This document shows positions 58,807 to 64,000 of a stretch of 64,000 nt of DNA, piece after piece (the first letter of the stretch is position 1; each line of letters starts with the position of its first letter). The notes beneath the pieces are model-generated. The model was not told where the DNA came from and made no database searches. It worked only from the letters and a program-made list of their open reading frames with translations. The position numbers and the translations under genes are program-made. Origin of the DNA: Candidatus Obscuribacterales bacterium (lineage in GTDB: Bacteria > Cyanobacteriota > Vampirovibrionia > Obscuribacterales > Obscuribacteraceae); NCBI GenBank assembly GCA_020050835.1, contig JAGVKB010000127.1, positions 1 through 64,000 on the forward strand. Direction: 5' to 3'.

Positions 58807-60276
58807 ATGTTGTTGAGCATGTTCGGCGAACGAGTTGGACCAGCTGACAATCTGCACTTCAACGAATTGGCTATGCCGATTCTGATCTTTCAAGTGATCG
58901 AAGGGCTGCGCCGCGGCTTGTCACGATTTATGGGACAGAGCCGGGTGGCGCTTCTATTGTCCAATCAAGAAGACGCCCCTGTCTTTATATTTGACCCGCA
59001 TGGGCTGCTATCCACTTACAAAACCGACTTGAAACACTTTTATCTTGACTCGCATGAATGGCGCAAACACCCGCCGTTCTCAGCGGGAGCCGGTTCGGCA
59101 TACAATTGCACCGGGCCTGCCTTGCCCGGCTTGATCTCATGCGGCCGGCAGTCATCGGCAGTGTCTTATCAAATGTGGTTTGCGGCAGCGCACCCGGCGC
59201 TCTGCTCAGACGGGCCGATTGAGGAATGGCTGGCGAAAGCCTCCTGGATTCTCGCTCACGAGCTGGCGGTCGGCACCAGCCTGTTCACCAGCTCGGCGAC
59301 GCACACGCTCGAGTCGTATGGACGCTACGCCATTTCAGATTACCTCCTTTTCCAACTGCGCAAAATTCTGCGCGCCGAACCTGGATTTCGCCCGGAAGAC
59401 ATCTTGAGCTCAATTGCTTCGATTTCGACCACCTACGAAGAAGGCAAGCTTCCGACCGGCTCCTTAGTCTATGTCAGCAGCAAAACTCTGGCATCGCTTG
59501 ATGCAATCGTCCGTTTCCCTGACGGTACCGGTCCATCGATCAAAGAACACAAACATGCCAGAAAACTTTTAACGATGGTGGAAAGGACAGATCGTTATCT
59601 AATCTCGGACGGGCAAACCGTACTCGGGATCGGCTCTGGCCCCATTCCAGAAAGTGCCGTAGCTGCGCACTTTCGGCATGGTCATGGCGAAGTCTCACTG
59701 GGACAGAAACCGATCTGCACCTTTAATGAAGGTGAGTTTTCGGGTCTTGGCCGGATGCCTCAGCTGCAAGAGCTTCAGGCTTCCATCTCACGAAAGTTAG
59801 CTGATCCCGCCTCCGGCTCTCAGTTGCTGCATGGCATCGCCAATCTAGTGCAGGTAGCCCAGGACCTCGGGCATGGCTGCACTGTCGTAGTAGATTTTGG
59901 TAACCCGATGCGATCCATACCGGGGCAGACGCTTGAGCATCCTTTGTTGCTATCAGAGAATCTCGACCTGGTTGAAGGAATGTCCAAGATCGATGGTGCA
60001 CTGCACCTCGATGCCTCCGGTAGGCTCCATGCCTTCGCCTGTTTGCTCGACGGCAAGGCGGTCGAAGGTGAAGATCGCGCCAGAGGAGCACGCTATAATT
60101 CCGCCCTGCGCTTCACCGCCGACTGTGAGCAATCACTTGCTGTCGTCGTATCGGCTGACGGCCCGGTGGCAATTCTGCAAGGCGGCAAACAGATCAATCT
60201 GCCGCCGGTCTGGTCTGCGAAAGACAGTGTCTACATGGAACCGCCCACTCTCGACTCCTGGCTCGGCAGCAAGTAA
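58807..60276 (+). CDS. DisA_N/DAC-domain (diadenylate cyclase-like) protein with N-terminal sensor-like domain
   Basis: This 489-residue protein has a C-terminal domain (~385-465) matching the DAC fold: the DGA motif in SKIDGALHLDASGRL at ~396, then RGARYNSALRF at ~424 where typical enzymes have GTRHRAA, followed by LAVVVSADGPV. DAC enzymes make c-di-AMP from two ATP. The RHR-to-RYN change may alter activity. Residues ~1-240 form a large domain without membrane helices; I recall DACN-type sensor domains fused to such cyclases but cannot assign this one. An immediate in-frame stop upstream fixes the start, but its ribosome site is weak. No adjacent effector gene. Confidence 0.75.
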   Translation: MLLSMFGERVGPADNLHFNELAMPILIFQVIEGLRRGLSRFMGQSRVALLLSNQEDAPVFIFDPHGLLSTYKTDLKHFYLDSHEWRKHPPFSAGAGSAYNCTGPALPGLISCGRQSSAVSYQMWFAAAHPALCSDGPIEEWLAKASWILAHELAVGTSLFTSSATHTLESYGRYAISDYLLFQLRKILRAEPGFRPEDILSSIASISTTYEEGKLPTGSLVYVSSKTLASLDAIVRFPDGTGPSIKEHKHARKLLTMVERTDRYLISDGQTVLGIGSGPIPESAVAAHFRHGHGEVSLGQKPICTFNEGEFSGLGRMPQLQELQASISRKLADPASGSQLLHGIANLVQVAQDLGHGCTVVVDFGNPMRSIPGQTLEHPLLLSENLDLVEGMSKIDGALHLDASGRLHAFACLLDGKAVEGEDRARGARYNSALRFTADCEQSLAVVVSADGPVAILQGGKQINLPPVWSAKDSVYMEPPTLDSWLGSK

Positions 60277-60348
60277 GGCGCGATCGGCCGGCTTTCAATC
60301 CACTATAGTTCTACATCTACATGTTGTTTCAGGTGACAGTGGGCAAAT

Positions 60349-60537
60349 ATGATGAATCAAATTCGAGTAGCCATTATTGGCGCAGGCGGTTACACCGGAC
60401 AGGAATTGAATCGCCTGCTCGCCCAGCATCCAGTCGTTCGCCTCGAAGCTCTGCTTTCTCACACTTACGCCGGCAGGTCATTCATCTTTGGATGTCCCGA
60501 AACGACCGGTCTTACACAATCGGCTGCTTCTCCATAG
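60349..60537 (+). pseudogene. argC: argC 5' stump (N-acetyl-gamma-glutamyl-phosphate reductase)
   Basis: The 62-codon frame begins with NQIRVAIIGAGGYTGQELNR, then LLAQHPVVRLEALLSHTYAG, the typical start of ArgC with its NADP-binding GxxGYTGxEL. After about codon 43 homology ends and a stop follows at 60537. A full ArgC is ~345 residues, so the gene lost its reductase domain with the catalytic Cys. The same region shows a possible argJ stump further on. A functional argC must be elsewhere if the organism makes arginine from glutamate. Confidence 0.8.
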
Positions 60538-60571
60538 TTCTCCAATTGTGAACGATATTCAAAACTACTCG

Positions 60572-60600
60572 TTGACAAATACGCAAGCCCGCATTAGTTT
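60572..60600 (+). promoter_or_regulatory. sigma70-type promoter of the arginine leader
   Basis: A perfect TTGACA (60572-60577), a 17-base spacer and TAGTTT (60595-60600) precede the leader peptide. Transcription would start near 60607, about 35 bases before the leader ATG. Confidence 0.6.
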
Positions 60601-60641
60601 AGTTATCCTGTATCGATTCGTTCCGCCAGAGTTTTCAAACG

Positions 60642-60731
60642 ATGGTTATTCTCAACCCACTCAGCACTCAACAACCTCGCCGCCGCCGCGTTCGTCACCC
60701 TGCGAACTCGGGGCCATTATGGCTTAGCTGA
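60642..60731 (+). CDS. arginine attenuator leader peptide (29 residues)
   Basis: This short frame starts at ATG 60642 with only a weak ribosome site and contains QQPRRRRVRHP: four CGC Arg codons in a row, Val, then CGT (60678-60695). Its stop (60729-60731) is 26 bases before a terminator stem, and a competing antiterminator stem can form inside it. This is the layout of amino-acid leader peptides such as trpL or hisL, here for arginine, upstream of argFGH. A role in sensing charged arginyl-tRNA is inferred. Confidence 0.7.
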   Translation: MVILNPLSTQQPRRRRVRHPANSGPLWLS

Positions 60732-60787
60732 TACGAATCCCAAAAGTCGTCACAGTCCCCCCGAGCTCAGCAGACTCGGGGGCTTTT
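60707..60787 (+). terminator. attenuator: terminator stem and competing antiterminator
   Basis: The terminator is CCCCCGAG (60758-60765) pairing with CTCGGGGG (60775-60782), 8 bp, 9-base loop, followed by CTTTTCATTTT. An upstream CTCGGGG (60707-60713) is complementary to CCCCGAG (60759-60765), so the two structures are mutually exclusive. Also, GTTCGT (60690-60695) can pair with GCGAAC (60702-60707), possibly sequestering the antiterminator arm. A ribosome stalled at the Arg codons would leave the antiterminator arm free and allow read-through. Confidence 0.7.
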
Positions 60788-60812
60788 CATTTTGCATAGT
60801 GAGGCAGTAGCA

Positions 60813-60857
60813 ATGACAAACGATACTCAATTCATCGAAGGCGGTATGACACTCTAA
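60813..60857 (+). pseudogene. 14-codon stump resembling the start of argJ
   Basis: The frame begins with ATG eight bases after GAGG, so it has a real ribosome site, and reads MTNDTQFIEGGMTL then stop. The IEGGMT part resembles the conserved I-x-GGVTAPxGF opening of ArgJ (glutamate N-acetyltransferase). This is a weak match of few residues; it could also be a second leader peptide. It sits between the leader terminator and argF. Confidence 0.35.
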
Positions 60858-60918
60858 TTTCAAATGGTCCGATCATCAAAGCCTCATAGGCATGCCCTTA
60901 AATTCCGGAGCAAACAAA

Positions 60919-61935
60919 ATGAACAGCCCTCTTCTCAACCGATCTACTCAGACCATCAATTCACAGCGGATGGCACCGCCAACCGGTCGCTCGCCATTGT
61001 TGCCGATCCTCACCCAGGACAGCCTGCGTGGTCGAGACATACTGGGGATTGAGGATTTATCCGCTCAAGAATTGGAGATCATACTTGGTGTCGCCTTTTT
61101 GCTAAAGCAGCACAAGTTCGATGATACGCAAACGCTGTTCGCCCGGGGTCAATCGTTAGCGATGCTCTTCGAAAAGCCCTCACTGAGAACGCGGGTCACC
61201 TTCGAAGCCGGCATGATTCAGCTTGGTGGCAGCGCCATCAATCTCGAAGGAAAACTGGGCGAGCGTGAATCCGTAGCCGATGTCGCGAGGAATCTCGACC
61301 GGTGGCTCGATGGCATTATGGCCAGGGTCTTTCAACATGCAACCTTGTTAGAACTGGCACAACACGCAAAGATTCCCATCATCAATGGCTTGAGCGATCT
61401 CGAGCATCCTTGCCAGGCGCTGGCGGATTTCCTGACAATTAAAGAGGCCAAAGGACAATTCAAGAAGTTGAAAGTCGCCTTCATCGGCGACGGCAACAAC
61501 GTCGCTAACTCGCTGGCTCTGATGGCCGCAAAGCTTGGGGTAGACTTCACCATCGCCTGTCCAAAAGGTTACGAGCCGAACCAGGAGCTCTGGCAGAAGG
61601 CTCTCTCTTTCGCCAATGTAACCGATTCATCGCTTGTCATTACGCACAGTCCAACCGAAGCCGCAACGGCAGCCGACGCGGTTTATACTGACACCTGGGT
61701 CTCGATGGGTCAGGAAGAAGAGAGCGACAGGCGCAAGCTCGAGTTCCAAAAATACCAGGTAAACTCCGCCTTAATGTCCCATAGCAAGCCGGACGCTATC
61801 GTAATGCATTGCCTCCCGGCACATCGTGGAGAGGAGATTACCGACGAGATCATCGATGGTAATCAATCGGTCGTATTCGATCAAGCCGAGAATCGGCTGC
61901 ACGTGCAGAAGGCACTCTTATCCTTGATTCTATAA
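60919..61935 (+). CDS. argF: ornithine carbamoyltransferase
   Basis: This enzyme makes citrulline from ornithine and carbamoyl phosphate, the step before argG. I chose the ATG at 60919 because GGAG lies eight bases upstream; an earlier ATG (60892) lacks one. It has 338 residues. Motifs: the carbamoyl-phosphate site EKPSLRTRVTFE (the usual S-x-R-T-R), the HPCQALADFLTI segment, GDGNNVANSL and HCLPAHRGEE with the catalytic Cys. The first ~40 residues are an unusual polar extension. It is followed 27 bases later by argG. Expression probably depends on the upstream leader attenuator. Confidence 0.95.
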   Translation: MNSPLLNRSTQTINSQRMAPPTGRSPLLPILTQDSLRGRDILGIEDLSAQELEIILGVAFLLKQHKFDDTQTLFARGQSLAMLFEKPSLRTRVTFEAGMIQLGGSAINLEGKLGERESVADVARNLDRWLDGIMARVFQHATLLELAQHAKIPIINGLSDLEHPCQALADFLTIKEAKGQFKKLKVAFIGDGNNVANSLALMAAKLGVDFTIACPKGYEPNQELWQKALSFANVTDSSLVITHSPTEAATAADAVYTDTWVSMGQEEESDRRKLEFQKYQVNSALMSHSKPDAIVMHCLPAHRGEEITDEIIDGNQSVVFDQAENRLHVQKALLSLIL

Positions 61936-61962
61936 AACTCAATCTCACCAGGGAGAACTGAA

Positions 61963-63183
61963 ATGAAAAAGATATTGCTGGCATACAGCGGAGGGCTGGA
62001 CACCTCTTGCATGCTTCAGTGGCTGAAAGACAAGTATGCTGTTCCAATCGTTGCCTATTGTGCCGACGTCGGACAAAACGAAGACCTGAAGCTGGTCGAG
62101 CAAAAGGCACTGGCTGCCGGCGTCGAGAAATGCATCATCGAGGATTTGAAAGACAGCTTCGTAAAAGACTACATCTTTCCGGCAGTGAAGGCTAACGCTC
62201 TCTATGAGGGTATCTACCTCATGGGCACTGCCTTGGCACGGCCCTGTATAGCCAGCGGGATGGTCACGGCGGCTCTTAAAGAAGGCTGCGATACGATTGT
62301 CCACGGAGCCACCGGAAAGGGAAACGATCAAGTACGCTTCGAGCTCGCTGTCAAAGCTCTCGCTCCCGAGCTATCAGTTGTCGCCCCATGGCGAAACTGG
62401 GAGTTCGACAGCCGGACTGCGTTGATTGACTATGCCGAGAAGAACGGCATTCCGGTCGGTGCAACCAAAGAAAAACCATATTCGATGGATGCCAACATTA
62501 TGCACATTAGCTACGAGGGCGGCATCTTAGAGGACCCCTGGCTGGAAGCGCCTCAAGATATGTTTACTTGGACAAAGAGCCCGGAAAGCGCACCGGACAC
62601 TGCTGAATACGTGGTGGTTGACTTTGCCGCCGGTGAGCCGGTTGCACTCAACGGAAAGAAGCTAAACCCAGTAGATCTTCTGACAGAGCTCAATCAGATC
62701 GCCGCCGGTCATGGCGTAGGCCGGGTCGACTGCGTGGAAAATAGATACATTGGCATCAAGTCCAGGGGCGTCTATGAAACTCCGGGCGTGACGGTTCTGA
62801 TGGCTGCCCATCGAGCAGTCGAATCAATCACCATCGACAAAGAAGTAGCGCATTTGAAGGACAGCGTCGGACAGCAACTTTCATTGCTGATCTACAACGG
62901 ATACTGGTTCGCGCCGGAGCGACAGCTGCTTCAAAACTTGATCGACCAGTCGCAGCTGAGCGTCACGGGCAGCGTCAAGGTCAAGTTATTCAAAGGCTGC
63001 GCCTCGGTTGTGGGCAGAAAGGCGCCGAATTCACTTTATGACGAGAAGGTTTCCAGCTTTGAAAGCATGAATGAATTTCTTCCGTCCGATGCCGGTGGTT
63101 TCATTAACATCTCCGGACTACGACTTACTGCATGGAGCAAAAACAATGCCAGTCTTAAGAAAAGCCTACTCCCAAGCGCTTGA
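61963..63183 (+). CDS. argG: argininosuccinate synthase
   Basis: This 406-residue enzyme joins citrulline and aspartate using ATP. The ATP-binding P-loop AYSGGLDTSC, the segment YCADVGQNEDL, HGATGKGNDQVRFE and WSKDANIMH-like (YSMDANIMHISYEG) are all intact. AGGGAG precedes the ATG. It starts 27 bases after argF and overlaps argH by 38 bases in another frame, so argF, argG and argH form an operon. No frameshift or missing residue was seen. Confidence 0.97.
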   Translation: MKKILLAYSGGLDTSCMLQWLKDKYAVPIVAYCADVGQNEDLKLVEQKALAAGVEKCIIEDLKDSFVKDYIFPAVKANALYEGIYLMGTALARPCIASGMVTAALKEGCDTIVHGATGKGNDQVRFELAVKALAPELSVVAPWRNWEFDSRTALIDYAEKNGIPVGATKEKPYSMDANIMHISYEGGILEDPWLEAPQDMFTWTKSPESAPDTAEYVVVDFAAGEPVALNGKKLNPVDLLTELNQIAAGHGVGRVDCVENRYIGIKSRGVYETPGVTVLMAAHRAVESITIDKEVAHLKDSVGQQLSLLIYNGYWFAPERQLLQNLIDQSQLSVTGSVKVKLFKGCASVVGRKAPNSLYDEKVSSFESMNEFLPSDAGGFINISGLRLTAWSKNNASLKKSLLPSA

Positions 63184-64000
63184 CCCGCTTGTTGCAAATT
63201 TCATTACCTCGATTAAGGAGGATAGCGAACTGGTCGCAGCAGATCTCGCCGGCAGTCTCGCGCATTGCAGAATGCTTGAAGCAAGAGCGCTGATTACACA
63301 TGAGCAAGCAGCAAATATTGCCGGCGGACTCAAACAGTTATCAGAGCTGGTTGCCAATGGCAGCCTTGAGTTGTCAGCCGAATTTGAAGACGTACACATG
63401 AACGTTGAAAAACAGCTCGAAAAGCTAATCGGCGAAGATGCGCTCAGACTGCACACGGCGCGCAGCCGCAACGACCAGGTAGCGCTAGACTTTCGACTCT
63501 ACGTGACGGCCTGCATCGATACAATTTGCGGCTTGATCCGAGCACTTCAAAATGCACTCTTGAACAAAGCTGCTCAGTATCCTGAAACCGTCATGCCAGG
63601 CTACACTCATCTACAGAGGGCTCAACCGGTACTTTTCTCACATGCGCTGCTGGCGTTTTTCCAGATGCTCGACCGTGATTTCGAGCGCTTTCAGCATGCT
63701 CGGCTGACAACCAGCGTCAATCCGCTTGGAGCTGGGGCGCAAGCCGGATCAGCGCTGGACATCGATCCGTCTCTTGTCACTTCCTGGTTGAAAATGGCTT
63801 CGACTTTCAAGAATTCAATTGATGCCGTAACGGACAGAGACTTTGCGGCAGATTTCTTGATGGCGGCATCGCTCTGTTCGACTCACCTCTCCCAATTGAG
63901 TGAGACGCTGATTGTCTGGAACACCAGCGAATTTGGTTTCATCAAGTTCGCCGACAGTTGCACCACATCATCGAGCCTGATGCCGCAGAAAAAGAATCCC
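63146..64000 (+). CDS. argH: argininosuccinate lyase, 3' end beyond window
   Basis: The ATG at 63146 lies inside the end of argG (38-base overlap, different frame) with TGGAG nine bases upstream. The visible 285 residues include EDVHMNVEKQLEKLIGED, HTARSRNDQVALDFRLY, GYTHLQRAQPVLFSH and the SSLMPQKKNP loop of the fumarase/aspartase superfamily, where the catalytic Ser lies, right at the edge. It releases arginine and fumarate, the last step of the pathway. Confidence 0.96.
   Translation, partial: MPVLRKAYSQALDPLVANFITSIKEDSELVAADLAGSLAHCRMLEARALITHEQAANIAGGLKQLSELVANGSLELSAEFEDVHMNVEKQLEKLIGEDALRLHTARSRNDQVALDFRLYVTACIDTICGLIRALQNALLNKAAQYPETVMPGYTHLQRAQPVLFSHALLAFFQMLDRDFERFQHARLTTSVNPLGAGAQAGSALDIDPSLVTSWLKMASTFKNSIDAVTDRDFAADFLMAASLCSTHLSQLSETLIVWNTSEFGFIKFADSCTTSSSLMPQKKNP

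Follow-up and report, generated by a model that had tools for sequence, protein, structure and literature searches.

Leader-peptide attenuation is the textbook mode of control for trp, his, phe, thr, leu and ilv operons, and arginine biosynthesis is known for control by ArgR and T-boxes. The argFGH locus of a Candidatus Obscuribacterales bacterium, a member of a non-photosynthetic lineage of Cyanobacteriota, raises the question of whether an arginine operon can also be governed by a ribosome translating a short leader. We analyzed a contig stretch of 64,000 nucleotides (hereafter the window) from the 7.0-Mb assembly of this organism. A first-pass annotation had proposed that a promoter, a 29-codon frame with a run of five Arg codons, a terminator and an alternative pairing between the leader and the terminator lie ahead of argF, argG and argH. 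Rereading the sequence, we found every one of these parts where it had been placed, and the sequence together with NCBIfam assignments bore out their order before the three genes. The features are as follows.

60572–60600, forward strand: predicted sigma-70-type promoter, with TTGACA at 60572–60577, a 17-base spacer and TAGTTT at 60595–60600
60642–60731, forward strand: 29-codon leader peptide frame and stop codon (MVILNPLSTQQPRRRRVRHPANSGPLWLS), with ATG at 60642 and TGA at 60729–60731
60678–60695, forward strand: Arg codon run CGC CGC CGC CGC GTT CGT, read from the sequence; proposed stall site
60683–60695, forward strand: segment 1, the protector strand toward segment 2, overlapping the Arg run (from folding)
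60702–60713, forward strand: segment 2, the partner of segment 1 or of segment 3 (from folding, covariation with segment 3 and a swap test)
60714–60757, forward strand: spacer that includes the stop codon, predicted by folding to pair with itself within the antiterminator
60758–60768, forward strand: segment 3, either the terminator 5′ arm or the antiterminator 3′ strand (from folding and covariation)
60775–60787, forward strand: segment 4 (terminator 3′ arm, 60775–60782) and U run (60784–60787), from sequence and covariation
60892–61935, forward strand: argF, ornithine carbamoyltransferase (NCBIfam TIGR00658 and NF001986, above cut-off), starting at ATG 60892 or 60921
61963–63183, forward strand: argG, argininosuccinate synthase (NCBIfam NF001770 and TIGR00032, above cut-off)
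63071–64000, forward strand: argH, argininosuccinate lyase (TIGR00838, above cut-off)

Within the leader frame, CGC codons at 60678, 60681, 60684 and 60687 and a CGT at 60693–60695 place five Arg codons in six positions. The predicted terminator pairs CCCCCGAG (60758–60765) with CTCGGGGG (60775–60782), followed by a C and then TTTT at 60784–60787. CTCGGGG at 60707–60713 is the exact complement of CCCCGAG at 60759–60765, so that the same terminator arm has two possible partners. We saw no obvious Shine-Dalgarno sequence before the leader ATG at 60642. When the window was scanned for short frames that are enriched in any of several amino acids and have a terminator behind them, this locus was the single candidate, and Rfam holds no family for the leader element.

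The genes around the leader suggest a curtailed pathway. The argH frame extends past the window to contig position 64513, and its true start probably lies later than 63071, since the frame from that position overlaps argG. Directly upstream of the leader, at 60349–60603, is an N-terminal remnant of argC with in-frame stops, which the earlier annotation had not mentioned. We found no intact argC or argJ in the genome. De novo ornithine synthesis by the argC/argJ route thus looks lost, and with argC lost and argJ absent, ornithine and citrulline are probably the only substrates from which the organism can make arginine. The leader was retained with argFGH. Further upstream, an open reading frame at 58807–60276 matches an anti-phage protein family (NF053872) over residues 197–457, below cut-off.

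We searched for similar leaders in a sample of 50 genomes from 24 genera of the same family. A degenerate pattern gave 39 raw matches, partly overlapping, in 18 genomes, compared with 5 for a reversed control pattern, and all but one of the matches (in G021) were leaders of this kind at arg genes. A covariance model built from 30 leaders matched strongly (E<1e-5) ahead of arg genes from 11 genera; the window element scored E 1.1e-14, a value that is not independent because the 30 include this very sequence. Pattern and model together place the element upstream of argF, argG, argC, argJ or argB across these 11 genera. Upstream of argF, genus after genus shows a short frame with R-R-R-R (or R-R-T-R-R), a segment 2 that reads GAACTCGGGG or GAACCCGGGG, and a terminator with a 5′ arm complementary to segment 2. 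TTGAC-N17/18-TA occurs at the corresponding place in most leaders of the relatives. Among the pattern matches was a second group of leaders, located before argC, and inspection added others before argJ, argB and argG, as well as a divergent one before argC in G015. NCBIfam confirmed the downstream genes for representatives. A single cluster in G025 carries three leaders, arranged as leader-argC, leader-argJ-argB-argD, another gene, and leader-argF-argG-argH. One match (G032, C290) is a genuine leader truncated where the contig ends.

Several other matches were set aside. Weak model matches in G005, G027 and G069 were dismissed on inspection, and those in the phylum sample were partial, beginning downstream of the Arg run. 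The sole full-length match with E<1e-5 in the class outside the family, in G049, is a branched-chain-rich leader and not an arginine leader. This leader (G049:C2:411763-411879, minus strand) encodes MLSRSIIILTVVVLVLIGSTG and is followed by a CCCCGAG/CTCGGGG terminator; the frame downstream of it, in a genome from another family of the class, had no NCBIfam match. The model is tuned to the family, and more distant arginine leaders would escape it. Separately, argF was absent from about 15 of the 36 family genomes examined, suggesting that arginine biosynthesis was lost repeatedly in the family; of the 15 genomes that lack it, G001 alone carries a leader.

The Arg run itself is under coding constraint. 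Across its four codons in ten argF and argG leaders, all 59 pairwise differences fall at third positions and none at positions 1 or 2. When the two members with R-R-T-R-R are added, the differences at codon positions 1, 2 and 3 number 20, 20 and 105. Outside this R-R-T-R-R clade, which carries a Thr codon, the run changes only synonymously. Its Arg codons are exclusively CGC, CGA or CGT, all of which are read by one tRNA-Arg (anticodon ICG); CGG, AGA and AGG together make up 43 of the 96 Arg codons in five window open reading frames. In every argF and argC leader the first Arg codon precedes segment 2 by 23–27 nt, a spacing that would let a stalled ribosome hide segment 1 while leaving segment 2 free.

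Both alternative helices are conserved as well. In the alignment of 30 leaders, the antiterminator helix has 91.8% of its cells paired, compared with at most 62% after a one-column shift, and its covariation is 0.336 against 0.210 ± 0.018 in shuffled alignments. The terminator helix has 91.6% of its cells paired and a covariation of 0.325 against 0.212. Because segment 3 belongs to both helices, changes run through three segments: argF leaders, for example, combine GAACTCGGGG and CCCCGAGTTC, and argJ leaders combine GCGCTCGGG and CCTGAGCGC. In a swap test, segment 2 paired with the segment 3 of its own leader at a mean of −16.9 kcal/mol, versus −13.9 kcal/mol with those of other leaders (0 of 20000 permutations); as the 30 leaders are related sequences, neither the covariation nor the swap figures are independent probabilities. 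The earlier annotation had called for an alignment of homologous loci and for covariation between the leader segment and the terminator 5′ arm. The relatives answer both points, with the frame, the Arg run, the spacing and the two helices kept in 11 genera and the antiterminator covarying beyond shuffles. The outcome that the earlier annotation had named as refuting its proposal, a short frame or Arg codons that relatives do not conserve, thus did not occur.

Folding adds a third helix, absent from the first account, in which segments 1 and 2 pair. In the window this protector hairpin joins 60683–60695, over the last Arg codons, to 60702–60713. Over the 30 leaders, the probability that segment 2 pairs upstream is 0.67–1.00, versus 0.42–0.72 in shuffled sequences, and the pairing is weak in some argJ and argB leaders. 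The stop codon lies within the spacer between segments 2 and 3 in 28 of the 30 leaders, and the spacer is predicted, from folding run without a shuffle control, to form a structure of its own. The argC leaders of different genera (L035, L047, L060 and L066–L071) share a spacer motif, TAGCTGAT..TTAGCACCATT.TCGA, around and after the stop codon, and its small stem shows compensated variation (GCTGTTACAGC, GCTGCTAGCAGC).

These parts suggest how the switch would work. RNA polymerase would start near 60607, with a ribosome translating the 29-codon leader behind it. At low levels of charged tRNA-Arg, this ribosome would stall on the CGC run at 60678–60689 and mask segment 1, so that segment 2 (60702–60713) could join segment 3 (60758–60768) as soon as the latter is made. 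This 2:3 antiterminator would block the terminator, and argFGH would be transcribed. When arginine is plentiful, the ribosome would reach the stop codon, opening the stem inside the antiterminator; behind it the 1:2 hairpin would re-form, then the 3:4 hairpin, and transcription would end at 60784–60787.

Constrained folding of the nascent transcript reproduced the logic originally proposed, in which a stall at the Arg codons favors the antiterminator. When the transcript reached 60771 and a ribosome footprint covered the first, second or fourth Arg codon, the antiterminator was the best fold, pairing approximately 60702–60712 with 60760–60771. For the full transcript, either free or with a ribosome at the stop codon, the best fold combines 1:2 and 3:4. 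A ribosome stalled at the CGT at 60693 masks segment 2 by half, disrupting the antiterminator; therefore, stalls should be effective at the first four Arg codons. The minimum-energy fold of the full-length RNA favors the terminator once segment 4 exists, even with a stalled ribosome. Because this holds in every case modeled, the predicted switch must be kinetic. Overall, we conclude that the element very probably controls argFGH by ribosome-mediated transcription attenuation, with charged tRNA-Arg as the signal that it senses. It is best read as attenuation of the trp/his type with arginine specificity, part of a leader-peptide regulon; from parts, conservation, coding constraint, covariation, gene context and the absence of ArgR, all legible in the sequences, we infer stalling, tRNA charging as the signal, termination and read-through.

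Other mechanisms could in principle use the same parts. A nascent Arg-rich arrest peptide might sense free arginine or ornithine, with tRNA charging not the signal; the ornithine-sensing SpeFL and the fungal arginine attenuator peptide are precedents, and Arg-rich peptides are able to influence ribosomes. The recurrence of NSGP.W after the Arg run in several leaders might be taken for a conserved arrest motif, but its NSGP part is the in-frame translation of segment 2 and is therefore explained by RNA pairing. An arrest peptide would require conserved residues, whereas beyond the Arg run these peptides vary in sequence and in length, from 16 to 37 residues, and the fungal peptide works by the opposite logic. 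We consider this reading quite unlikely.

An arginine-binding RNA or an RNA-binding protein might instead select the hairpin, the short frame being incidental. A conserved structure with alternative helices ahead of biosynthesis genes, and matching no known Rfam family, is what such a riboswitch or protein target could look like. The preserved frame, with Arg codons that vary only at third positions, speaks against it, as does the fact that the leaders do not all share a conserved unpaired core of the kind an aptamer requires, making this explanation very unlikely. That the locus is a plain terminator preceded by a chance GC-rich frame, free of any regulation, is extremely improbable: the genome is GC-rich enough to yield CGC runs and the adjoining argC remnant marks a rearranged place, but conservation over 11 genera with coding constraint and covariation contradicts coincidence, as do the few matches to the reversed pattern and the lone candidate in the window. 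We therefore retain the tRNA-Arg attenuator as the reading to be compared with known systems.

In Proteobacteria, ribosome-mediated leader attenuators govern the six kinds of operon named at the outset. They have also been described for trp, cys and branched-chain genes in Actinobacteria (PMC1262725) and for his genes in bacilli (PMC2965389). The element shares with trp/his-type attenuators a run of end-product codons in a short frame, the order of protector, antiterminator and terminator, and an intrinsic terminator before biosynthetic genes. Here, an Arg-codon-rich frame, predicted to be translated and constrained as coding sequence across relatives, precedes argFGH; a predicted intrinsic terminator at 60758–60787 separates it from argF; a mutually exclusive antiterminator uses the terminator 5′ arm; and the protector 1:2 hairpin overlaps the control codons. 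By every feature that sequence can address, the element thus belongs among the ribosome-mediated leader-peptide attenuators, differing in its arginine specificity, its occurrence in non-photosynthetic Cyanobacteriota and its copies before several separate arg units.

The closest arginine-related leader is orf34 before Salmonella speF, whose Arg codons act through Rho and RNase G (PMC6386406). There too, consecutive Arg codons of a short leader make downstream expression arginine-dependent; however, orf34 has only two of them in succession, lacks an intrinsic terminator, relies on Rho and RNase G, and precedes an ornithine decarboxylase gene of polyamine synthesis. The window leader has argFGH downstream and an intrinsic terminator, which places it outside the orf34/SpeFL group. 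In Pseudomonas aeruginosa, a leader peptide and attenuation were proposed for carAB at the arginine/pyrimidine branch point, but that attenuation was ascribed to pyrimidines and involves no Arg-codon switch of argF, argC or argJ (PMC4997734). ArgR and arginine T-boxes share the target genes and physiological purpose of the element, but ArgR is a DNA-binding protein that is absent from the window genome, and T-boxes bind tRNA directly; an Rfam T-box model gave no match in 59000–64000 at E up to 5. Surveys describe His leaders and no arginine case in bacilli (PMC2965389), no arginine attenuator in Actinobacteria (PMC1262725), and eight leaders, none for arginine, in S. lividans (PMC8079986). None of the open-access papers we searched describes attenuation by Arg codons at arginine biosynthesis genes. 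Three aspects appear to be new: the specificity for arginine, the lineage in which the element occurs and its deployment at several arg operons.

The distribution of ArgR (PF01316) bears on how the leaders are used. ArgR is absent from the window genome, whereas 6 relatives and 9 of 14 control genomes encode it. Wherever a leader precedes argF, argG or argC in the genomes examined, ArgR is missing. Among 21 argF-bearing family genomes examined, none of the 14 with a leader at these genes encodes ArgR, compared with five of the other seven. This inverse pattern is suggestive only, because the genomes share ancestry. Three genomes (G007, G023 and G033) have ArgR without a leader. Strict mutual exclusion is contradicted by three covariance-model hits in genomes with ArgR, where the only leader precedes argB (G013 and G030) or argJ (G001). 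In two genomes with argF, G034 and the 65% complete G003, we found neither a leader nor ArgR.

Taken together, the sequences suggest that the attenuators form an arginine regulon in the family, covering argF, argG, argC, argJ and argB, mostly where ArgR is absent. We lean, with moderate confidence, towards the view that in Obscuribacterales duplicated leaders, one per arg unit, replaced ArgR, leaving a regulon that depends solely on tRNA-Arg charging and translation. A conserved Arg-codon attenuator before up to three separate arg units per genome would extend leader-peptide attenuation to a new specificity and a new lineage. Moreover, because one family holds genera with ArgR, genera with leaders and a few with both, it may offer a natural series for how repressor and attenuator regulons replace each other.
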